Under the pieces are notes generated by a model. It did no database searches, was not told the origin of the DNA, and saw only the letters and a list, made by a program, of their open reading frames with translations. This document shows, piece by piece, positions 9,404 through 43,809 of a DNA stretch of 64,000 nucleotides (the stretch's first letter is position 1; each line of letters begins with the position of its first letter). The DNA lies in contig JAGBAX010000016.1 of the NCBI GenBank assembly GCA_017938765.1, positions 42,464 through 106,463 of the forward strand, in the 5' to 3' direction. The position numbers and the translations under genes are program-made. Source of the stretch: Alistipes sp. (GTDB lineage Bacteria; Bacteroidota; Bacteroidia; Bacteroidales; Rikenellaceae).

Positions 9404-9407
9404 CCAC

Positions 9408-9766
9408 GCAGATTCGGTTCATCGCTGCTTGGGAGGGGTAACCCTCTTGAGGGGAGGAAAGTCCGAGCAACATAGAGCACCACACAAGTTAATGGCTTGA
9501 TGTCCGTGAGGGTATAGTAGCGTAACAGAGAATAACCGCCCGAAAGGGTAAGGGTGAAAAGGCGGGGTAAGAGCCCACCGCGAGGGCAGCGATGTCTCTC
9601 GGCAGTACGCCTTGTGGGTTGCAAGGTTATGTATATCGGCAATTAAGGGTTGCTCGCCCGATGCCGAGGGGTAAACCGCTAGAGACGATAGGAGACTATC
9701 GCCGTAGATAAATGATGAACTGGGGAGGAAACTCTTGACACAGAACTCGGCTTATAGAATCTGCAG
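9408..9766 (+). ncRNA. rnpB: RNase P RNA (class A)
   Basis: Catalytic RNA of RNase P, which removes tRNA 5' leaders. The 5' end GCAGATTC (9408-9415) pairs with GAATCTGC (9757-9764) to close helix P1. The conserved core is visible: GAGGAAAGTCCGAGCA near 9464, ACAGAGAATAACCGCC near 9525, AAGGGTGAAAAGG, and GGTAAGAGCCCACCG near 9567. The length of about 358 nt fits class A RNAs. A strong promoter lies just upstream and a terminator just downstream. An 18-nt piece of the 3' end recurs inverted at 9834-9851, and a 15-nt piece recurs directly at 9916-9930. Confidence 0.95.
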
Positions 9767-9770
9767 TTAT

Positions 9771-33666: not shown

Positions 33667-35112
33667 ATGAGAAAGTTTTTATATACTATGGTTGCACTTC
33701 TTGCAACCCTTACAACAACCTCGTGCCTCTACGGTGTAGGTAGTGACGAGGGGCTGGATGTAGAGAATACTACAGGCTTTAAGGTTGAGGTCTCTGCAAC
33801 TATTATCTCGGCTGATGGCGAGGATACAGCAGTTTTCCGCGTGCTCTATAATGGCGAGGATGTTACAGCAGAGGCTACTCTGTACGATAATGCTACCAAT
33901 CAGCCATATGAGACAATGAGTTTCTCGACCTATACATCAGGAATCTACCAGTTCTATGTTATCTGGGGCGAGCATCGTAGCGAGGTTATTGATGTGCAGG
34001 CTGTTCAGGCAATGGACCTCTCTGATAGAGACGAGCAGGGACTGACAGTAACCCTCTCTACAAACCTTGTTCAGGTGGGTAAGCAGTATGCTGCCTTTAT
34101 TGTCCGCTATGATGGCAAGGTGCTTGAGCCAGCAGAGATGGAGAAGGTGAAGATTTACAATGCCGAGACGGACAATGGCGTAGCTCTTGATAAGGTTGTA
34201 GCTGTCTACAATGGTAAGGAGTATGTTCTTCCTTCATATACAGCCAATAAGGCTGGTAAGAAGAGCTTCTGGGTGGGCTATAAGACCAAGAATACTCGCG
34301 AGACACCAGTGACAATCACTGCCGTAAGTAGTGCCATTCCATCTCGTCCTGTAGACCCACAGCCGGCAAATACAGACTTTGTACACCGCGCTATGTTTAC
34401 ACAGCTCACAGGTACTTGGTGTGGATATTGCCCTAATATGATTGAGGCGTTCCACTATATGTTTGAGAACGAACAGTATAAGGATAAGTTTGTGCATACA
34501 GCAGTTCATGGCGGTGACGAGTTTAGACTTACATTGCCAAATGGCCGCGACCTTGCATCTATCCTTAATAACTCTGGTAGCTACCCATATACAATTGCAA
34601 ACCTTGCCTATGGTCTGAATACTAACAACTCTGTTGATAGCAATATCAGCGCTATTATGGGTGCTATTGAGAATACACTCAAGACTCCTGCTCGCGCAGG
34701 TATTGCAGTGCGCACAGAGCTTAAGGATAATATGTTGCTTGTTCGCGCATCTGTAAAGGTCTCTCACGATGGTGAGTACTCTATCGGTGCTTGGCTTGTT
34801 GAGAGTGGCCTCCATGCTGCACAGAGTAACTATACAGATATCAAGGAGGATTATATTGACATCCACGAGAATGTAGTTCGCATTGCTGACTCAAATCCAG
34901 AGGGTAGCGACTTCAAGGGTCACCCAATGGGCCATATCGGTAAGGGCGAGAGTGCAGACCACCTCTTTATTATGGAGTTAGACCCAAGTTGGAAGGCGGA
35001 GAACTGCCACTTAGTGCTCTTTGTCTCAACAACACAGTATAACCAGTACACTATTACAAACGCAGTTAAGACTGTGTCACTCACTTCGGGTGTAGAGTTT
35101 GAGTATAAGTAG
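33667..35112 (+). CDS. Omp28-like thioredoxin-fold lipoprotein, single module
   Basis: 481 residues. The signal peptide has lipobox TTTSC (Cys about residue 20). Two Ig-like segments (VEVSATIISADGED; LTVTLSTNLVQVGKQ) are followed by the thioredoxin-like domain starting near HRAMFTQLTGTWCGYCP (CxxC about residue 252) and ending ITNAVKTVSLTSGVEFEYK. It matches one module of the 952-residue protein at 1020-3878. Presumably envelope, lipid anchored; client or redox activity unknown. Confidence 0.8.
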   Translation: MRKFLYTMVALLATLTTTSCLYGVGSDEGLDVENTTGFKVEVSATIISADGEDTAVFRVLYNGEDVTAEATLYDNATNQPYETMSFSTYTSGIYQFYVIWGEHRSEVIDVQAVQAMDLSDRDEQGLTVTLSTNLVQVGKQYAAFIVRYDGKVLEPAEMEKVKIYNAETDNGVALDKVVAVYNGKEYVLPSYTANKAGKKSFWVGYKTKNTRETPVTITAVSSAIPSRPVDPQPANTDFVHRAMFTQLTGTWCGYCPNMIEAFHYMFENEQYKDKFVHTAVHGGDEFRLTLPNGRDLASILNNSGSYPYTIANLAYGLNTNNSVDSNISAIMGAIENTLKTPARAGIAVRTELKDNMLLVRASVKVSHDGEYSIGAWLVESGLHAAQSNYTDIKEDYIDIHENVVRIADSNPEGSDFKGHPMGHIGKGESADHLFIMELDPSWKAENCHLVLFVSTTQYNQYTITNAVKTVSLTSGVEFEYK

Positions 35113-35131
35113 TGAACTGTAACACTTTTAC

Positions 35132-35171
35132 AATTAGGGAAAGTCAGTACTGACTTTCCCTAATTATTTTT
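35132..35171 (+). terminator. Terminator of the second surface locus
   Basis: 34-nt perfect palindrome (35132-35165: 17-bp arms AATTAGGGAAAGTCAGT) followed by ATTTTTT. Confidence 0.92.
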
Positions 35172-35213
35172 TGCTATAATCTGTTGCAAATGAGAATTGT
35201 TGAAAAAAATTGT

Positions 35214-35221
35214 TAAATTTG
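35214..35221 (+). promoter_or_regulatory. -7 element for the RyR/TIR cluster
   Basis: TAAATTTG, 21 bp before the ATG at 35243. No good -33 TTTG box was found at the expected distance, so the promoter may be weak or activated. Confidence 0.55.
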
Positions 35222-35242
35222 CATTAGTAATATATTGTAACT

Positions 35243-37402
35243 ATGAAATTGGTACTTGTTGGAGGCCTCTCGTTTATCGGATTTGTCGCTATGTTGTATA
35301 TGTTATGGCGATTTTTTAACCGAAGCATCAAGGCGGATAGGGTAATGGCTAAGGGCGAGTTTAAGACTCTCTTTTTTATCTTTCTTTTTGTTGTCTCTGT
35401 GCTGCTGACCGTTTCGGGCGTGTTGTACTGCGCCGGTATTAAGGGTAGTAGTTTTGTTGGTAGTGGCGAGGAGTCAGATACAGGTGTGCTGTGGGCGCTT
35501 CTCTATCACTGTATGGATCCAGGAAACTTAAGTGATGTAGCAAATTCAAGCCATAGGGTTGTGGCACTACTTGTGGCGCTGTTTGGTATTGTTGTGCTGA
35601 ATGGAGTGCTTATTTCATCTATTGTCAGCCTCTATGAGAGGTTTGTAAATAGGTGGGAGAAGGGCTTGGCCAGATACCATTGCGAACTTAAGAGGTCAAA
35701 ATTTGTGGTAATTATTGGTAGCAACGAGCTTATTGCCGACCTTATTCGTCAGATATTTGCCCGCGAAATTGTGGTGGACTATGTCGTTGTACAGACAAAT
35801 GGAGATGTTGAGGCTCTGCGTAAATATTTGTCTTCGTTCCTTTCGCACCAAGATGAGCAGAGGGTTGTGCTCTACTATGGCGAGCAAAATTCGGCAGACG
35901 ATATTGCGGATTTGCATTTGGAGTGTGCCAGTGAGGTCTTTATCCTTGGGGATAGTGTTGAGGATGAGAGCTATAAGACAAACCACGATGCGCTGAATAT
36001 GCAGTGCCTTAGAATTATTGCAGACCAGTTGTCTCAGATTACACCGCGTAAGTCTCACGATAAACAGGATAAAAGGGAACGCCTTATTTGCCATGTGATG
36101 TTTGAGTATCAGACATCCTTCTCAATCTTCCAGTTTGCCGATATCAGTAATACAATAGAGTCGCTTATTGACTTTAGACCATTCAACTACTATGAGCAGT
36201 GGGCGCAGCGCGTATTTGTAAACCGAGACCTTACCCCTGCCGATATAGGTGTTGAGAAATACCTGCCATTAGAGGGGCGAGAACCTATAACTGTTGATAG
36301 TAAGGATTTTGTCCACCTTGTTGTTGTCGGAATGTCTAAGATGGGCGTCTCTATGGCTATTGAGGCGGCACATCTGGCACACTATCCAAACTTTACAAAG
36401 GATAGCAACCTTAAGACCCGCATAACATTTATTGATACCGACTGCACGAATGAGATGGGATACTTCCAAGCCCGCTTTAAGGAGCTTTTTGCCCTATCAA
36501 GATGGAGAGTGCAAACCGCTAAAGATGGTAATATATCGTATGATACCACCAAGTGGGAAAATGGAGATTTCTTTAAGAATAATAGCTATTTAGGCGATGA
36601 TTTTATAGATGTAGAGTGGGAGTTTATTGAGGGTGGTATTGAGACCAAAGAGGTTCAGAACTACCTTAAGGCGGCGGCGACAAATGCCAATGCGCGCCTT
36701 AACCTCGCTATCTGTCTTCCGCAGGATAACCAGAGCGTGGCAGCGTCGCTCTATCTGCCTGATGAGGTCTATGAGAAGGCTGTGCAAGTGCTTGTATATC
36801 AGCGTCACGGCTCGGCAATTATTGATAGCATTTCGCACAACGGCAATAGCAACCAGTACTATACTCACCTACGAGCATTCGGAATGCTTCAGTCTGCGTA
36901 TGACGACACTCTGGCCGAACTGTCGTTCAATGTTGCCAAGATTATGGATAGCCACTACTACATTATGTATCAGCAGGTTAATAAGGAAAATAATGTTGTT
37001 GAGGTCAGCCACACAAACATTCGTGGAAAATCTAAGGCTGCCAAGCTGTGGAGTAATATCTACAATGCAAATACTATTTGGACAAAGCTGCGCAGTATCA
37101 ACTACGCTACAAGGCAGACAATCAGTGAGCAGGATGTTGTAGCATTAGCGCGTACGGAGCATAACCGTTGGTCTGTTGAGCAACTGTTGATGCGCTTTAG
37201 GGCGCTTACGGTGCAGGAGCAGGAGGATGTGTGCAGTGGTAAACTTATTAAAGAGGCTCTGAAGGGCGATAAGATGGCGCATCTTGATATCTGTAGCTTT
37301 GAGCGCCTTAAAGAGATTGACCCAGTGGCAACAAAATACGACGAGGGCTTTATCCGCATCATCCCAGAGATTCTTGAGACGGTAAAGACCGATTGTAAAT
37401 AG
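35243..37402 (+). CDS. Channel-like membrane protein with two Rossmann domains and C-terminal RyR-like domain
   Basis: 719 residues. Membrane helices at about 4-24, 43-66 and 105-128. A pore-like re-entrant stretch (LWALLYHCMDPGNLSD, about 81-97) lies before the last helix, a layout like the CASTOR/POLLUX-type and RCK-gated ion channels. A first Rossmann domain starts FVVIIGSNELIADLIRQIF (about 154), the second VVVGMSKMGVSMAIEAA (about 358); both resemble TrkA-N/RCK nucleotide-binding folds. The C-terminus (about 630-712; ARTEHNRWSVEQL, then CSFERLKEIDP and KYDEGF) aligns with the RyR domain of the 96-residue neighbour. Predicted inner-membrane ion channel gated by a nucleotide or NAD-derived ligand; this is inference. 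First gene of the cluster, 24 bp before the TIR gene. Confidence 0.75.
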   Translation: MKLVLVGGLSFIGFVAMLYMLWRFFNRSIKADRVMAKGEFKTLFFIFLFVVSVLLTVSGVLYCAGIKGSSFVGSGEESDTGVLWALLYHCMDPGNLSDVANSSHRVVALLVALFGIVVLNGVLISSIVSLYERFVNRWEKGLARYHCELKRSKFVVIIGSNELIADLIRQIFAREIVVDYVVVQTNGDVEALRKYLSSFLSHQDEQRVVLYYGEQNSADDIADLHLECASEVFILGDSVEDESYKTNHDALNMQCLRIIADQLSQITPRKSHDKQDKRERLICHVMFEYQTSFSIFQFADISNTIESLIDFRPFNYYEQWAQRVFVNRDLTPADIGVEKYLPLEGREPITVDSKDFVHLVVVGMSKMGVSMAIEAAHLAHYPNFTKDSNLKTRITFIDTDCTNEMGYFQARFKELFALSRWRVQTAKDGNISYDTTKWENGDFFKNNSYLGDDFIDVEWEFIEGGIETKEVQNYLKAAATNANARLNLAICLPQDNQSVAASLYLPDEVYEKAVQVLVYQRHGSAIIDSISHNGNSNQYYTHLRAFGMLQSAYDDTLAELSFNVAKIMDSHYYIMYQQVNKENNVVEVSHTNIRGKSKAAKLWSNIYNANTIWTKLRSINYATRQTISEQDVVALARTEHNRWSVEQLLMRFRALTVQEQEDVCSGKLIKEALKGDKMAHLDICSFERLKEIDPVATKYDEGFIRIIPEILETVKTDCK

Positions 37403-37426
37403 AGACTATCTCGCTGCACTTAAATA

Positions 37427-40123
37427 ATGGAGACTACTTTTCACTACTACGCTTTTATAAGCTACTCAACCAAAGACTCAAAGTGGGCTAAGTGGCTCAG
37501 ACAAAGCATTTCATACTACCATATTCCCTCCTCTGTTAAGAGGAGCAAGGTCGGTGTGCCAGATAAGCTGCAGCCAATCTTTATCTATGAGTATGATTTG
37601 TCTGGCAACCTGCTACACAATGTTATACAAAAGGAGCTTTTGGACTCTAAGTACCTTATTGTGATATGCTCTCCAGAGGCTGCGCGCTCTAAGTATGTCA
37701 ATGATGAGGTGCAGACCTTTGTAGATCAAGGCCGTGAGGGGTATATCATCCCTTTTATTGTAGATGGTCAGCCAAACTCTGCAGACCCTGCTACTGAGTG
37801 CTTCCCACCCGCGCTGCTGAACCTGTTAAGAAGTGGCGATAAGAGCAAGGAGATTAGAGGCGCAAATATAGCGACAAATGGCAAACATCAGGCACTTGTG
37901 GATGTTGTTGCGACGATGATTGGTGTTCGCCGTGACGAGATTTGGAATAGCTACCGAGTGCGACAAATACGCCAGCGCGTGGCTATGGTGGCTGTGGCAG
38001 TTGTCGCTCTGCTCTCAGCCCTGTTTTACTGGGACTACACTCGCCCGACATATAGATACTTTGCCGACTATGTGGATGTTTGGGGCGTACCTTCGGGCGT
38101 TGTGGAGGTTGATAGTAAGACACGGGCGCAACGAAACGGAACATATCGCTTTGAGTACCGCCGAATACCGTTAGGCCAGAGGAATGCTTATAACTGGCGA
38201 CTTGCAGCGGTGAGCTATGTCAATTCAGCAGATAGGCCGCGTGAGATTAGTAATAGTGAGTATAATGACCGCTATCCAATTCAGAAACTGATTTATAGTC
38301 CGCAAAATGGGGTGCTGACAGATATAGTCTACTGCAATGAGAATGGCCGAGAGCAACTCCAGCATAGATTATCTCGTCGTGGTAATTCAGTAGCCTCTGT
38401 TGTAGATATTGAGAGTGCTGTTGCTGGTGAGAGTATCAGCTTTTCAAAGAGCTTCTCGCTGCTTTCAGATGCAGAGGAGGCGAAACCGTCGCGCATTGTA
38501 AGATATCTCTATGAGCGTAATGCGGATGGATATATTACCAAGATGACCTACCATGCAAATAACGACCATAACTTTAGCCGGAGCGCTGTTGCGGATAATA
38601 ATGGCGTCTGGGGCGTGGCATTTGACCTTGACTCACTTGGTCGCCGCGTGGCTCTGCATTACCTTAATCAGGATGGCTCTTACTACTGCAATAAGATAGG
38701 TGTTGCCTCTCGCCACTATAAGTACGATGCACAGGGTGAAATTACTGAGTGTCGTGCGCTCAATTTAGCAGGTAAACCGATACTGAATGAGTATCTGTGG
38801 GCAACAGCTGTTTCCAAAATTGACTCTCACCGAAATATCGTCCAAAAGGAGTATTATGGCGTAGATGGCAAACCTTGCTTACATAAGGATGGTTATGCGA
38901 GAGAGGTTATATGTTATGATGACTCTTGGATCGTTATAGAGCGTGCTTATTATGGTGCGGATGGCAAGCCATGCTTTCACAAAGATGGTTATGCTAAAAT
39001 TGTCTATCACGATGTTGACTACGATATTACTGAGGCTACTTTCTACGGTGTAGATGGTAAACCTTGCCTAAATAGTGATAATATTGCCAAATATGTCGTT
39101 AGGTACGATGAGTGCGGAAATATTGTAGAGTCAGCGACTTATGGTTTGGATGATAAACCATGCTTGGATATGTATAGGGTTGCCAAATATGCTTGTGTGT
39201 ACGATGAGCGTGGAAATGTGGTGGAGGCCTCTTACTATGGCGTTGATGGTAAACCATGTTTAAGGGTGGATGGTAATGCAAAATTGATTGCTAAGTATGA
39301 CGACAGAGGAAATGCAATCTGCGAGGCTTATTATGGATTAGACGGCAACCCTTGTGTGAATATAGGGGGCTTTGCTAAATCGACATCCCGATATGATGAA
39401 CGCGGTAATAGGGTAGAGCGTGCTTACTATGGTTTAGATGGTAACCTTTGCCTCGGTAAGAGCGGTTATGCAAAGAGAATATCTCAGTTTGATGATAGGG
39501 GCAATGAGATAGAGTGTACTTATTACGGTATAGATGGTAATCTTTGCCTAAATGAGAATGGTTATGCAAAGAGGGTATCTCGGTTTGATGATAGAGGTAA
39601 CGAAGTAGAGTATGCATATTATGGAGTAGATGGTAAACTCTGTTTATCATGTGATAGCTATGCTAAATCAACTGTTGAGTTCAATGAGCGCGAAAATATG
39701 GTAGTACAAAGCTATTATGGCGTTGATAGTAAGCCTTGTTTGATTTATGACGGTTATGCTCAATGTGTGTCAAAGTACGATGATAGAGGAAATTTGGTAG
39801 AGGTTACCCTATATAGGGTAGACGGTAAACCATGTTTTGATAGGTATGGTATTGCAAAGGTCGTTTACTTGTATGATGAAAGAGGAAATCAAACCGTTGA
39901 GGCATATTATGGCGTAGATGGCAATCCTTGCTTGAACGGGAATGATTTTGCGAAGGCTGTTTATCAATACGATGAGAGTGGAAACGAGATAGAGGCGGCT
40001 TTCTATGGGCTAAGTGGCAAACTTTTGAGGCGCACTGTTTATGAGCACGATGAGCGCAGAAATGTCGTAAGTGAGACCGTTTATGCCCCAAACGGAGATG
40101 TTATATCTAAACTATTTACCTAA
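37427..40123 (+). CDS. TIR-domain membrane protein with C-terminal 32-residue YD-like repeats
   Basis: 898 residues. An N-terminal TIR domain (about 5-150) has HYYAFISYSTKDSKWAKWL, YLIVICSPEAARSKYVNDE and IIPFIVDGQP. Glu94 in YVNDE sits where TIR NADases carry the catalytic glutamate. One membrane helix (about 185-202) is preceded by Arg residues, so TIR should be cytosolic and the C-terminal part outside the inner membrane. From residue 476 to the end run about 13 repeats of 32 residues, consensus YYGVDGKPCL-x5-AK-x4-YDERGN-x3-EA, loosely like RHS/YD repeats, each with a Cys. A possible NAD-consuming signal producer coupled to an external sensor. It lies 15 bp before the next gene. Confidence 0.78.
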   Translation: METTFHYYAFISYSTKDSKWAKWLRQSISYYHIPSSVKRSKVGVPDKLQPIFIYEYDLSGNLLHNVIQKELLDSKYLIVICSPEAARSKYVNDEVQTFVDQGREGYIIPFIVDGQPNSADPATECFPPALLNLLRSGDKSKEIRGANIATNGKHQALVDVVATMIGVRRDEIWNSYRVRQIRQRVAMVAVAVVALLSALFYWDYTRPTYRYFADYVDVWGVPSGVVEVDSKTRAQRNGTYRFEYRRIPLGQRNAYNWRLAAVSYVNSADRPREISNSEYNDRYPIQKLIYSPQNGVLTDIVYCNENGREQLQHRLSRRGNSVASVVDIESAVAGESISFSKSFSLLSDAEEAKPSRIVRYLYERNADGYITKMTYHANNDHNFSRSAVADNNGVWGVAFDLDSLGRRVALHYLNQDGSYYCNKIGVASRHYKYDAQGEITECRALNLAGKPILNEYLWATAVSKIDSHRNIVQKEYYGVDGKPCLHKDGYAREVICYDDSWIVIERAYYGADGKPCFHKDGYAKIVYHDVDYDITEATFYGVDGKPCLNSDNIAKYVVRYDECGNIVESATYGLDDKPCLDMYRVAKYACVYDERGNVVEASYYGVDGKPCLRVDGNAKLIAKYDDRGNAICEAYYGLDGNPCVNIGGFAKSTSRYDERGNRVERAYYGLDGNLCLGKSGYAKRISQFDDRGNEIECTYYGIDGNLCLNENGYAKRVSRFDDRGNEVEYAYYGVDGKLCLSCDSYAKSTVEFNERENMVVQSYYGVDSKPCLIYDGYAQCVSKYDDRGNLVEVTLYRVDGKPCFDRYGIAKVVYLYDERGNQTVEAYYGVDGNPCLNGNDFAKAVYQYDESGNEIEAAFYGLSGKLLRRTVYEHDERRNVVSETVYAPNGDVISKLFT
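38852..40075 (+). repeat. Tandem 96-bp coding repeats
   Basis: About 13 degenerate 96-bp units inside the TIR gene, each encoding a 32-residue unit with YDERGN and DGKPCL-like cores; at least one more degenerate unit precedes them. Units are diverged at DNA level, so recent expansion is not obvious. Confidence 0.85.
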
Positions 40124-40138
40124 TAGAGACTTGTAGTT

Positions 40139-42310
40139 ATGTTTGTGGATCAGATACTTAGTTGGTTGTCGTGTTTTGCGAGTGATAATTTTAGGGCGGA
40201 CTCTCTGTTGCTTGATTTGGGGCAGAGTACTGTCAACCTATCTACCATAGGCTCGTGGATAGTACTTTTTCTGGTGCTACTTGTGGTGTTTATCTACTTT
40301 CTGCGCAAGACTCGCATCTTTGAGTGGATATCAAAGCATATACTCTCGTTTGCGATTGTAGTATGGCTGTGGGGCGTTGTCGTCTACATTGTCGGCTTCT
40401 ATAATGGCGAAGTGAGTGGCCTCTCGGTAGTGCTACGTGCCATTATTGCCTCGTTTAAGATGTTTGTGGTCTCAAACGAGTTGGCGCGAGTAGTGCCACA
40501 GCTGCACTCCGATGCGCTCTATATGACGATGTTTGCTGTTGTGCACTTTGTTGCGGCGTTTATAACCTTTCTCTTTATCTTCAAGATGATAGGTTATAAG
40601 ATAAAGTCGTATATAGATATCGTAGTTTGTAGATATTGGCATAGTAAAGAGAGAAGGGTGCACATCTTTTGGGGTATAAACCAAGCCTCGCAACTGCTTG
40701 CTCAGAGCATTCGCCGTCAGCTCAAGAGCGATATAATCATCTTTGTAGATGTAGATAAGGAGGGTGGTGAGGCAAGCAACAAGCAGAGCTCGATAAGCAC
40801 GATAACAAATATGATTACCATCCGCAATAGCGATATTGTCAATCTGGACGCTATTGGCGCGCTTGTAGACCACTGCTATGGAGGCCCTGCGGCGGTAAGT
40901 GAAGCGGAGGCAAACAAGGTATTCAAGGCTCTGCATCTGCGAAATATAGCTCAGATTGTTCGCAAGAGTAGTAAGACCAATCTATACCTACTCTCTGAGG
41001 ACGAGGGCGAAAATATCGCGGGTGCGCTCAACTTGCAGAAGGATACAATTCTCAATACGCTTGGTCGCGGTAGGGTAGAGATATATGTCCATGCACGACG
41101 TCGCGCGTGTGATGATGTGCTGAACGTCTCCTCTCAGAGCCAGTGCAATATCAATATAGTAGACTCGGCATACTTGGCTGTTCAGACCCTCAAATGCTCA
41201 GAGAGTGCTTTGCCAGTGAGTTGCGTGGATATTGATACAAAGACAGGACTTGTAGATACTCCATTCAACTCGCTTATTATCGGCTTTGGAACGACAGGTC
41301 AAGAGGCCTTCAAATTCTTGTATGAGTTTTCAGCCTTTGTTGATAGTAAGTTGCATAGAAGTAAATTTTGTTGCCATGTGGTGGATGAGAAGATGGATAG
41401 TATCGCGGGTCTTGTACGCGCTCAGATGCCTGCTATTACTAAAGAGGAGTTGGTGCTTATCAAGACAAGTGTCAACTCTGTAGAGTTCTGGCAACGCATA
41501 GAGAAGATTATCTCGGAGCTTAACTATGTGGTAGTTACACTCAATAACGACAACTTAGGGCTCTCAACAGCTGTAAACCTCTTTAAGTATGCACTCAAGT
41601 GCCGAAACACTTCATCGCCAATGATGAAGATTATGCTCCGCTGCTATGATAGTCGCAATCAAGCGCGTATGAAGGAGGTTATTGGTGGTCTGAATAGCTC
41701 TACCGAAGGGTCTAATGTCAAGATAAACCTCTTTGGATTAAATTCTGAGCTGTACGACTATCGTTTGATAGTCTCCGATGCTACTATTTGTCAGGCTATG
41801 GAGTTCAACCGCATATATGAGAACTCAACTCTTACGGCCGAGGAGCAGTGGCAGAAGAATTTTGGCCCAGAGGCTGTTGAGACGATAATTAGCAAGGGGT
41901 ACAATCGCTATCACGCCGTGTGTGAAATTAATCGCAAGGTGTCCCAGAATATCTCAAATGCCCTGCATTGCACGACCAAGCTGATGCTTATGGGACTGGA
42001 TACAGATAAGGCTACAGAGCGACTAAAACTCTTCTGTGGCTATGTCGCTACCCGTAAGTCTGGTACAACAACATACCAGTGTGATACTCCAGAACAGCGC
42101 CTGCTTCTTAATATGGCTATCGTAGAGCATGAGCGCTGGGTGGCATCTCATAAACTTATGGGCTACACATTCGGAGAGAAGAGTAGTGCTTCAAAACAGC
42201 ACCCTTGTATATGCTCTTGGGACTCTCTTGACCAGACTACGCAGTCTTATGATTGCAATGTCGTAGACACCACAATAAAACTCGCCTACGAGCAGTTAAG
42301 TAATAAGTAG
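40139..42310 (+). CDS. Second membrane protein with two Rossmann domains and RyR-like C-terminus
   Basis: 723 residues. Helices at about 34-56, 64-88 and 131-156, with an amphipathic segment near 95-115 (LSVVLRAIIASFKMFV). Rossmann domain 1 starts VHIFWGINQASQLLAQSI (about 174), domain 2 starts SLIIGFGTTGQEAFKFL (about 378). The C-terminal ~60 residues (VEHERWVASHKLMGYTFG, KQHPCICSWDSLD, SYDCNVVD) match the RyR domain. Domain order equals that of the 719-residue protein, but the sequences are strongly diverged, so they may form a heteromeric complex. The membrane part lacks the DPG pore-like motif of the first protein. Function unknown; predicted ligand-gated membrane effector or sensor. Confidence 0.72.
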   Translation: MFVDQILSWLSCFASDNFRADSLLLDLGQSTVNLSTIGSWIVLFLVLLVVFIYFLRKTRIFEWISKHILSFAIVVWLWGVVVYIVGFYNGEVSGLSVVLRAIIASFKMFVVSNELARVVPQLHSDALYMTMFAVVHFVAAFITFLFIFKMIGYKIKSYIDIVVCRYWHSKERRVHIFWGINQASQLLAQSIRRQLKSDIIIFVDVDKEGGEASNKQSSISTITNMITIRNSDIVNLDAIGALVDHCYGGPAAVSEAEANKVFKALHLRNIAQIVRKSSKTNLYLLSEDEGENIAGALNLQKDTILNTLGRGRVEIYVHARRRACDDVLNVSSQSQCNINIVDSAYLAVQTLKCSESALPVSCVDIDTKTGLVDTPFNSLIIGFGTTGQEAFKFLYEFSAFVDSKLHRSKFCCHVVDEKMDSIAGLVRAQMPAITKEELVLIKTSVNSVEFWQRIEKIISELNYVVVTLNNDNLGLSTAVNLFKYALKCRNTSSPMMKIMLRCYDSRNQARMKEVIGGLNSSTEGSNVKINLFGLNSELYDYRLIVSDATICQAMEFNRIYENSTLTAEEQWQKNFGPEAVETIISKGYNRYHAVCEINRKVSQNISNALHCTTKLMLMGLDTDKATERLKLFCGYVATRKSGTTTYQCDTPEQRLLLNMAIVEHERWVASHKLMGYTFGEKSSASKQHPCICSWDSLDQTTQSYDCNVVDTTIKLAYEQLSNK

Positions 42311-42382
42311 TGAAAAATGTAGGAGTAATTTTTGATATATTTTGGCGTGGGGACGCTCTTTATTAATGAACTAAATTGATTT

Positions 42383-42673
42383 TTGATGAAAAATAGTTAT
42401 GTACCGCAACCAATGGATACAAGTGATATCCAGTTGCCAGAAGAGTTGAATGAGTTGGTAGAGAAGATGGCTCGTAATGTTCACGAGGTGTGGGCAGAGG
42501 GTCGTATTAACGAGGGTTGGAGTTATGGTCAGACACGAAATGATGCCCTCAAACAGCACCCTTGTCTTGTTCCGTATGAGGAGCTACCCGATTCAGAGCG
42601 CGAGTATGACCGCCACACAGCCGTGCAGACGTTGAAGCTTATCTGTAAGTTGGGATTTAAGATTACAAAGTAG
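42383..42673 (+). CDS. Stand-alone RyR-domain protein
   Basis: 96 residues, cytosolic. Residues about 22-93 form one complete RyR domain (PF02026-type): MARNVHEVWAEGRINEGWSY, HPCLVPYEELPDSEREYD and TAVQTLKLICKLGF. The family is named for the repeats of the ryanodine receptor, and bacterial single-domain members are known. It lies 72 bp after the second channel-like gene on the same strand and is followed by a strong terminator, so it closes the cluster. Probably a small ligand-binding subunit or regulator; inference. Confidence 0.88.
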   Translation: MMKNSYVPQPMDTSDIQLPEELNELVEKMARNVHEVWAEGRINEGWSYGQTRNDALKQHPCLVPYEELPDSEREYDRHTAVQTLKLICKLGFKITK

Positions 42674-42685
42674 TGTCCAAGCGCA

Positions 42686-42728
42686 ATAAAAAAATAGACC
42701 TTACCGCAGTAAGGTCTATTTTTTTATT
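42686..42728. terminator. Bidirectional terminator after the RyR cluster
   Basis: AATAGACCTTAC-CGCA-GTAAGGTCTATT (42693-42720) flanked by an A run and a T run. It serves the RyR cluster and the convergent TlpA-like gene. Confidence 0.92.
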
Positions 42729-42744
42729 GTTGATTATCAACTCT

Positions 42745-43809
42745 TTAGAATAGCTCGTCAAGTTTCTCAATAAGAGCCTCGCCGCGCAGGTTCTTAGCGA
42801 TAATCTCGCCATTTGAGCAGTCGATAAGGAAGTTTGTAGGGATGCTCTCTACGACATACTCCTCGGCTGCAGGGTTATTAAAGCTCTGCAATAGGCTAAC
42901 ATTTACCCACTTCATATTCTGCTTCTTGATAGCGCCTTTCCAAGCCTCTGCATTGCGGTCAAATGATACGCCGTAAATCTCAAAGCCCTTCTTGCTATAC
43001 TTTGCATAAGCCTGCTTAAGATATGGCATCTCGCCCATGCAAGGACCACACCATGAAGCCCAGAAGTCAAGAAGTACATACTTGTTGCCAGCCTTCTCAA
43101 CTACGCTCTGAAGAGATACTGTCTCACTATCAGGTGTTGGCTGCTCAATGTTGATATATGTAGGGGTAAAGTCGCTACCCTCAGCCTTAGGCTCTGTGCG
43201 CATCTTGCGAGCCGCCTTATCAAGTGCCGCCTTAACTACATCAAGCTCCTTCATAGGCTCTGACAGTGCGTTAAGCTTTGCGGTCATCTCTGCAGCAGAG
43301 AGCTCATAGCCCTTCTGCTCAATAAAGAGGATAACACCGAAGATATTATCTATATTGCCCTCAATAGCCTTGTCAATAAATGCATAGTACTCCTCAATCA
43401 GTACCTCACGCTGCTCATCGTCTGCAGCCTGTGCATAGCGCTGGTTGAAGGCTGTCATATCGGCGTTGTACTGGTTAAGGGCGTCGTTTGCAGGGGTGCC
43501 AGAAGCAACTACAGAGCTATCGGCAACATTTCCAGATACGGTAATTGTACCATCCTCAGTAAATACAGCTGTAAGTACCTCGTCTGCAGTACGCAGAGCG
43601 TAGTATCCAGCAGTTGGAGTGTCAATGTTGAACACAAACTTACCATTGTTAATCTCTGTGCTATCTACCACTGCACCATTACGATTAGGCTCAGCAAGGT
43701 AAATAGTTCCATCCTCAACACCAAGAACATCGCCATTAATAACTGCTCGGTGGTTGTTGCAGCCTACAGCCGCAGCTGCTACTGCAAAAATTGCAAAAAT
43801 CTTTCTCAT
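42745..43809 (-). CDS. DUF4369 / TlpA-like disulfide reductase lipoprotein
   Basis: 354 residues. Lipobox AAVGCN (Cys about residue 17). The N-terminal DUF4369 domain (about 22-125; INGDVLGVEDGTIYLAEP) is followed by a helical linker and a thioredoxin domain with active site DFWASWCGPCMGEMPYL and cis-Pro segment VESIPTNFLID. A typical Bacteroidetes periplasmic thiol reductase. It follows the related 211-residue lipoprotein by 2 bp and ends the recF-lpxD operon. Confidence 0.9.
   Translation of the reverse strand: MRKIFAIFAVAAAAVGCNNHRAVINGDVLGVEDGTIYLAEPNRNGAVVDSTEINNGKFVFNIDTPTAGYYALRTADEVLTAVFTEDGTITVSGNVADSSVVASGTPANDALNQYNADMTAFNQRYAQAADDEQREVLIEEYYAFIDKAIEGNIDNIFGVILFIEQKGYELSAAEMTAKLNALSEPMKELDVVKAALDKAARKMRTEPKAEGSDFTPTYINIEQPTPDSETVSLQSVVEKAGNKYVLLDFWASWCGPCMGEMPYLKQAYAKYSKKGFEIYGVSFDRNAEAWKGAIKKQNMKWVNVSLLQSFNNPAAEEYVVESIPTNFLIDCSNGEIIAKNLRGEALIEKLDELF

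Follow-up and report, generated by a model that had tools for sequence, protein, structure and literature searches.

Could a bacterial gene cluster in which a TIR gene stands among genes for RyR domains be a signalling system, with a nucleotide that opens or closes membrane channels? The question is raised by four genes, here named A to D, in a 64,000-nucleotide stretch of the genome of Alistipes sp. (assembly GCA_017938765.1, contig JAGBAX010000016.1), which we call the window. A sequence-only reading of the window had proposed that the TIR protein makes a nucleotide signal, that RyR or Rossmann domains bind it, and that the channel-like proteins of the cluster respond. Here we report a computational follow-up, which establishes from sequence the domains of the four proteins, the conservation of RyR ligand residues, the clustering of TIR with RyR genes and the borders of the cassette. 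On balance we favour a reading in which the cassette performs TIR signalling akin to Thoeris, with membrane effectors that are gated by RyR domains and a path that runs from signal to channel.

Domains and ligand residues

The open reading frame (ORF) list places the four genes at 35243-42673, all in the same direction, with intergenic gaps of 24 bp (A/B), 15 bp (B/C) and 75 bp (C/D). This bears out the cluster as first described, and so does its end, where the free RyR gene D precedes a strong terminator-like hairpin (Table 1). The listed TTG start of D at 42383 gives one residue more than the ATG at 42386.

The RyR domain is clearest in D (PF02026, 7e-38, 129.2 bits against a cut-off of 27.4). 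In the PDB, D comes closest to animal ryanodine receptors and to Bacteroides-type structures labelled 'putative ryanodine receptor'. A functional precedent is the phage RyR protein RyDEP, a homodimer that binds and cleaves 2'- and 3'-cyclic ADP-ribose (2'/3'cADPR) with key residues H75, W78, H100 and D117; six of eight tested relatives of RyDEP bind these signals, and cleavage was found in none of the eight (PMC13232231, preprint). H33, W36, H58 and D75 of D have the identical spacing (+3/+25/+42), and in a set of 20 D-type proteins selected from the loci available, H33, W36 and D75 never vary and at least 90% keep H58. Families of A (32 proteins) and C (20 proteins) were drawn from full-length ORFs in the scanned loci at profile E-values up to 1e-20. 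Their members are only 24-57% identical to A and 25-51% identical to C of the window, and the corresponding residues are nonetheless kept in 32, 32, 32 and 31 of 32 proteins (A: H640, W643, H680, D700) and in 20, 19, 19 and 20 of 20 proteins (C: H664, W667, H688, D705). The full set of ligand residues in A, C and D despite low family identity is the strongest pointer to function, and from the phage family we infer that these host RyR domains sense nucleotides. In crystals of the animal RyR repeat12, adenine nucleotides stack on the matching tryptophan (PMC12627627); D aligns with repeat 1 of RyR2 at 79 bits and keeps this tryptophan (W36) and two basic positions of the phosphate site (R40, R51). 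Cleavage of 2'/3'cADPR by D is a candidate activity in view of the conserved residues, although conserved relatives of RyDEP bind without cleaving.

The RyR ends of A and C are more divergent. In C the Pfam match (5.9e-6, 26.9 bits) lies just under the cut-off of 27.4 and rises over it, to 30.7 bits, in a six-frame search; the C-family profile matches RyR domains in the PDB (2.8e-17) and, weakly, unrelated membrane proteins. In A no RyR match was obtained with Pfam, and the domain is therefore called RyR-like only. A profile built in this analysis scores it at 5.2e-17, a value that is not independent because A was in the seed; matching the A-family profile against one of D-type proteins gives E 3.3e-5 and a probability of 72%. 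The sequence-only reading had described A and C as membrane proteins of identical domain order. Both indeed have a transmembrane region, two Rossmann-type domains and an RyR-type end, and their profiles align across the second Rossmann domain and the RyR domain (probability 99%, E 3.5e-18), but BLAST finds no similarity between A and C (E 0.44), their transmembrane regions are unlike, and a recognisable filter-like motif occurs in A alone.

The best Pfam match of A, a Slo-like RCK domain (7.8e-4), stays below the cut-off (19.5 against 24 bits). When the A-family profile was compared with the PDB, the top matches were the plant channels DMI1 (8.9e-6) and CASTOR (8.9e-5), across the first RCK domain. 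This relationship is weak but unprompted; since the matched chains (538-554 residues) align from their start, the pore itself lies outside the comparison. Weaker matches were KCNT1 (0.009), Lmo2059 (0.063), GsuK (0.077), an RyR protein of B. thetaiotaomicron (0.35) and MthK (0.54), and those of KCNT1, Lmo2059, GsuK and MthK cover the pore or the pore and RCK. The family profile was needed, as A alone gave no PDB match with phmmer. Between predicted helices (residues 91-95), A of the window reads MDPGN, an acidic, filter-like motif of the form D-x-GN ahead of the last transmembrane helix; D92 is found in 29 of the 32 family members and DPG in 21, with other forms in the rest. The filter of CASTOR is AD265S(A)GNHA, and the change D265N abolishes its current (PMC6697748). 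A looks like the clearer channel of the pair, of the DMI1/CASTOR type and perhaps permeable to Ca2+. Close relatives of A were found neither in viral contigs nor in plasmids, and C was not found in phage records.

Protein B opens with a TIR domain (TIR_2 1.1e-10, 42.5 bits against a cut-off of 28; ThsB_TIR 8.4e-7; both Pfam). Its Glu94, the candidate for the catalytic glutamate of the TIR family, is common to all 53 aligned TIR domains. The C-terminal repeats have relatives that form proteins of their own, whose N-termini resemble signal peptides (G022, L167), which argues that the repeats of B probably lie outside the cytoplasm. One B-like TIR protein (L166) continues with a transmembrane helix and WD40 repeats; another (L165) looks WD40-like by eye and has no such helix. 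B alone had no PDB match in phmmer. With one predicted transmembrane helix and repeats probably on the far side of the membrane, B resembles a sensor-synthase more than it does a soluble killer, and its TIR domain probably makes an ADP-ribose alarm signal.

Table 1. Coordinates of the cassette and its features in the window.
Feature	Position	Strand	Description or basis
Gene A	35243-37402	+	719 amino acids, channel-like; predicted transmembrane helices 3-21, 43-61, 106-124; two Rossmann/RCK-type domains; RyR-like C-terminus
A, selectivity-filter-like DPGN	35516-35527	+	Residues 92-95; comparison by eye with the CASTOR filter (PMC6697748)
A, RyR-like domain	37136-37357	+	Residues ~632-705 (H640, W643, H680, D700); own profile and profile-profile comparison
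Gene B	37427-40123	+	898 amino acids; TIR, single predicted transmembrane helix, large C-terminal repeat region
B, TIR domain	37427-37921	+	Candidate catalytic Glu94 (codon 37706-37708); Pfam and alignment
B, predicted transmembrane helix	37979-38035	+	Residues 185-203; net charge of the flanking 15 residues +2 ahead of the helix, 0 behind it
B, 32-residue repeats	38852-40003	+	~12 copies (YYGVDGKPCL..); period 32, self-match 40%; predicted outside the cytoplasm
Gene C	40139-42310	+	723 amino acids, membrane protein; two Rossmann-type domains, RyR C-terminus
C, RyR domain	42056-42295	+	H664, W667, H688, D705; Pfam, own profile, PDB profile comparison
Gene D, free RyR domain	42386-42673	+	95 amino acids from ATG; H33, W36, H58, D75
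Terminator-like hairpin before the cluster	35132-35165	+	Hairpin scan
Strong terminator-like hairpin after the cluster	42684-42729	+	Hairpin scan
Cassette span	35112-42744		Not present at the corresponding place in G036, G028 and G003 (congeners); homology breakpoints

Association of TIR and RyR genes

Among 247 Bacteroidales genomes, 25 had a PF02026 match and 86 a TIR match, and TIR was present in 20 of the 25 RyR genomes against 66 of the 222 others (Fisher P 1.4e-6; two draws of 247 genomes are treated as the same set since their listings agree). Within the 25 RyR genomes, 12 of 34 TIR matches lay no more than 10 kb from an RyR match, where 0.26 were expected (Poisson P 1.5e-16); the 12 span 11 genomes, two of them sharing one locus, with genome sizes rounded and relatedness uncorrected. 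Co-occurrence, on which the sequence-only reading had staked itself together with the TIR and RyR folds, is strong for TIR and RyR, and sequence matches to the domains speak for both folds; the four-gene set as such is not conserved.

A wider scan with the D profile, covering one genome per species in 84,980 species, confirmed 551 of the 590 stretches examined among the matches listed, and the best 80 gave 79 loci. Within 5 kb of the RyR gene, 45 loci had A or C, 34 had TIR, 17 both and 62 either; within 10 kb the counts were 49, 38, 23 and 64, leaving 15 with neither. They are based on match positions in contigs that are often short, and they describe the association rather than test it, since the A, C and TIR profiles were seeded from the window and from RyR neighbourhoods of its genus and order. 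Immediate neighbours were A/C and D in 22 loci, TIR and A/C in 12, and TIR and D in 11, and triplets with one each of TIR, A/C and D occurred in four (L098, L115, L136, L146). A and C, told apart by the better E-value, are usually alternatives (A only in 29 loci, C only in 17, both in three).

A conserved four-gene operon is to be rejected, as A, C and TIR occur together in only three of the 79 loci, never in the order of the window, and the modules reshuffle. The same content of A, C, TIR and D in another order is found in L084, L093 (Phocaeicola barnesiae DSM 18169, where the locus reads TIR-A and C-D) and L112, and one contig (G171) ends with A-C-D.

Proposed mechanism and alternative explanations

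In the scheme that we favour, the repeat domain of B outside the cytoplasm would sense envelope stress or phage contact, and its cytosolic TIR domain would turn NAD+ into an ADP-ribose-type signal, most likely a cADPR isomer. The signal would be bound by the RyR domains at the C-terminal ends of A and C, which, joined to RCK-type Rossmann domains, would open (or lock) the pores, and the ion flux across the membrane would then halt growth and phage production; D would buffer or hydrolyse the signal and set the threshold. Topology, signal identity, gating, ion, anti-phage role and the role of D are what we infer here, and the ion, the identity of the signal and the trigger are guesses within the scheme. 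All this hints at a relay for phage defence on the plan of the cADPR-ryanodine-receptor pathway of animals. From the relay proposed by the sequence-only reading, the TIR and RyR domains, the RCK-type relationship of A and a nucleotide-binding role of RyR domains (phage RyR proteins bind cADPR isomers, and the ligand residues are kept) hold up, whereas a conserved four-gene operon does not.

A bolder version is, on present evidence, less likely than not. It sees in the cassette a bacterial cADPR-RyR-Ca2+-channel pathway, in which a transmembrane TIR receptor would make a cADPR isomer, and this would act through a fused RyR domain to open a Ca2+-permeable channel of the CASTOR type, with the free RyR protein as the off-switch that clears the signal. 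RyR modules would then be receptors of host immunity for TIR signals, taken over by phages as sponges and glycosidases; animal ryanodine receptors would carry the same module, and the cADPR-RyR coupling would be an ancient immune device.

Several results weigh against the favoured scheme. PADLOC gave no match to any of the four proteins, and NCBIfam none near a cut-off. The TIR domain of B departs from most others at Y90 (most commonly W) and N61 (G in 46 of 52), so that its enzymatic activity is not assured. No full-length relative of B was among 60 relatives, and no TIR-RyR fusion was present in the ORFs scanned. The membrane part of C has no recognisable D-x-GN filter motif, which makes its pore function uncertain. 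The exact order A-B-C-D was found nowhere else among the loci examined, and 28 of the 45 loci with A or C within 5 kb have no TIR nearby (some on short contigs). Distances among A/C proteins are uncorrelated with those among their D partners (Mantel r 0.06 over 33 pairs, a value reached in 413 of 2000 permutations). AMP-PCP or ADP alone showed no binding to animal repeat12 detectable by calorimetry (PMC12627627). Finally, some RyR genes stand among virion-type genes, as in Pseudomonas phage PQ415074.1 (L179, 2827-3699) and an Aeromonas plasmid with a baseplate gene (NZ_CP110646.1; L180, 3830-4213), which indicates that RyR domains have other roles too; in phages they may also serve a structural or injected role.

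The missing co-divergence bears on what D does. In one alternative the scheme stands but D is no off-switch; as a soluble protein it would join the RyR domain of either A or C to complete a two-fold ligand clamp, like the tandem units of animal repeat12. RyDEP is a homodimer (PMC13232231) and repeat12 a pseudo-dimer (PMC12627627), A and C have one RyR unit each, and D adjoins A/C in 22 of the 79 loci. Set against this, A/C and D do not co-diverge, although the Mantel test is a weak one, D also stands beside TIR without A/C and occurs in phages, where C was not found, and in a tetrameric channel the RyR units could pair among themselves. Partnership is possible but on the doubtful side. The lack of co-divergence speaks, weakly, for proteins that share a small molecule rather than for a fixed complex.

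The absence of any match to a known defence family would also be expected of a module for ion homeostasis or envelope stress rather than defence, in which RyR and RCK domains would monitor the NAD+/ADP-ribose or ATP state and regulate ion flux accordingly, the TIR domain acting as a scaffold. RCK domains commonly gate channels by metabolites. The repeat12 of animals accepts plain ATP analogues or ADP (PMC12627627). Such a housekeeping function sits poorly with the patchy, cassette-like distribution, the shuffling of modules and the clustering with TIR, and with the company of other RyR genes, which includes SLATT, PycTM and AAA-type neighbours in some loci and isochorismatase-family genes near phage D relatives in two contigs. 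We consider it unlikely.

The TIR domain could instead be the effector, depleting NAD+, with the RyR-channel proteins as upstream sensors or brakes that answer NAD-derived nucleotides or ion changes. Effector TIR NADases exist (PMC12847820), and A/C and D often occur without TIR, as expected of free-standing sensors. The receptor-like layout of B, with one predicted transmembrane helix and probably extracytoplasmic repeats, points the other way, as does the binding of TIR synthase products by RyR domains in the phage system (PMC13232231), and this reversal of roles seems improbable to us. A chance neighbourhood of unrelated genes, for which it speaks that the exact order is found only in the window among the loci examined, can be dismissed as highly improbable, the genes being co-directional with gaps of 15-75 bp in one cassette between terminator-like hairpins, and their pairwise associations recurring far above chance, as the TIR-RyR distance counts attest.

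Comparison with known systems

The closest described systems are Thoeris (types I, II and IV, PMC12847820; type VI, PMC13232231). In them a TIR gene shares an operon with an effector that carries a nucleotide-binding domain and in type II is a membrane protein; the cassette likewise has a TIR gene beside putative effectors of this kind. The ThsB_TIR match of B is a further likeness. The described receptors, however, belong to SIR2-SLOG, TM-macro and caspase-like effectors (the type VI effector lies outside this comparison), whereas the predicted receptor of the cassette is an RyR domain on an RCK-type channel and its TIR protein is a single-helix, receptor-like one. As neither a SIR2-SLOG, TM-macro or caspase-like effector (Pfam; A, C and D) nor a PADLOC Thoeris model (all four proteins) was matched, the known ThsA-type effectors or models being defining features, the cassette is not filed as a member of Thoeris. 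It is filed as a variant of TIR-based nucleotide signalling, new by the literature searched.

RyDEP shares PF02026 with the cassette, and D has all four of its ligand and catalytic residues at the same spacing; RyDEP, though, is a phage anti-defence protein, while the RyR domains of the cassette are host-encoded, both free and fused to channel-like proteins. The passages available of the RyDEP preprint (PMC13232231) contain no discussion of bacterial RyR-channel operons. With the plant Ca2+ channels DMI1, CASTOR and POLLUX (PMC6697748), A shares an RCK-type soluble part, DMI1 and CASTOR being its top PDB matches, and an acidic filter (AD265SGN in the plant channel, MDPGN in A), but A adds the RyR-like C-terminus and overall sequence similarity is weak. 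The RCK-gated K+ channels GsuK, MthK and Slo2 have the same layout of pore followed by RCK and give weak matches to the A-family profile; A has the acidic DPGN motif in place of their TVGYG filter. Animal RyR repeat12 (PMC12627627) is alike in the alignment of D with repeat 1 of RyR2 and in the retained stacking tryptophan; it differs in that the animal repeats are in tandem, and no relationship was found in the channel part.

No report of host RyR receptors of TIR signals came up in the literature searched; the one paper found there that joins RyR and TIR domains in bacteria concerns phage evasion, and the association may be mentioned elsewhere. If the favoured scheme is true, a class of RyR receptors and a class of RCK/CASTOR-like channel effectors would be added to TIR immunity, the carriage of signal-binding RyR proteins by phages would be explained, and a candidate receptor class would be available for TIR products with unknown receptors, such as N1-cADPR (PMC12847820). 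It has long been asked whether cADPR acts on ryanodine receptors, and how, a question also raised in PMC13232231. It becomes testable in vitro, because the bacterial RyR domains that stand here beside TIR and channel-like genes are small and soluble, and domains of this kind have been crystallised before.

RyR loci in other genomes and phages

Defence-type companions of RyR domains were met in several other loci. In one (L060), a protein with TrkA_N (1.5e-20) and RyR (7.4e-14), both over the cut-off, is in the same gene run as a TIR gene, with three genes between, and a tandem-RyR protein with weak STAND/AAA signals is also present; in another (L169), a SLATT effector domain just over the cut-off occurs with an AAA-domain protein that ends in RyR. 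The large proteins of these loci (L060, 3739-8859; L169, 7887-12409) have 880-900 amino acids; they show NTPase signals, either AAA or weak STAND-like, end in one or two RyR domains and adjoin 'GVTGHR' genes (SLOG-like by eye), one of them with SLATT, and TIR genes. In a census of the phylum, 16 of 22 matching genomes belonged to a single genus (g217), most having two RyR matches in one frame of ~900 amino acids.

A plasmid of Priestia aryabhattai (NZ_CP128553.1; L178, 3656-11865) has an RyR gene whose product is 50% identical to D. This gene ends a same-strand run that opens with a PycTM effector, and is directly preceded by an annotated cyclase gene, in which the Pfam scan found TPR-S only. 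A TIR gene is close by on the opposite strand, and the locus is a possible RyR-Pycsar combination.

Relatives of D were present in eight viral contigs and in 256 phage records, mostly as partial matches, with at least 80% covered in three records. An isochorismatase-family gene is next or next but one to the D relative in two of the eight viral contigs (L157, 6375-6848; L158, 6705-7295), a count from scanned neighbours in these two, the neighbours in L159 and L161 being of other kinds by eye. The isochorismatase family includes nicotinamidases, and the arrangement recalls the NAD+-regenerating operon around RyDEP.

Two further companions recur. A pair found in L030 (9405-10938), L031 (9115-10819), L039 (10414-12124), L043 (3465-5131), L054 (7291-8959) and L056 (7491-9036) consists of a protein of ~180-200 amino acids, sigma-factor-like by eye (that of L030 has no Pfam match), followed by one of ~330-390 amino acids with a C-terminal RyR domain. 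In L030 the latter has a weak C39-peptidase signal, and it is possibly a protease effector read by RyR. Proteins of ~1000 amino acids stand beside RyR genes in L038 (9695-12700) and L033 (4017-6986); that of L038 has a pyruvate-phosphate-dikinase ATP-binding domain (5.5e-38), and the start of the L033 protein is similar by eye.

Genomic site of the cassette

The borders of the cassette are set by comparison with congeners, whose homology to the window stops at 35111 (G028, G003) or 35118 (G036) and restarts at 42745 (42761 in G003). The flanking homologous stretches are 7.6 kb apart in the window, against 64 bp in G036 (the contig ending 116 bp beyond this junction), 686 bp in G028 and 269 bp in G003, and the flanking genes, for an Omp28-type lipoprotein and a thioredoxin-type protein (the latter named by eye), adjoin each other in all three. 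A fourth congener (G006) has a different arrangement at the site. Over 36 congeners the distribution is patchy and cassette-like, with an A-family match in eight and a full-length C in none; one, G036, carries the tail of a C gene, with D behind it, at the edge of a contig.

The G + C content of the cluster (0.445) is slightly under that of the window (0.467), which gives no strong sign of recent foreign origin. In the closest congener, G028 (C3, 32775-33460; L172, 2276-2961), a different stretch of 686 bp fills the same intergenic site, which may therefore be a small insertion hot spot. A scan for sigma-70 promoters gave 21 matches, barely above the 16.5 of shuffled sequences (standard deviation 3.4). 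Elsewhere in the window, a class A RNase P RNA (Rfam RF00010) is located at 9406-9770.

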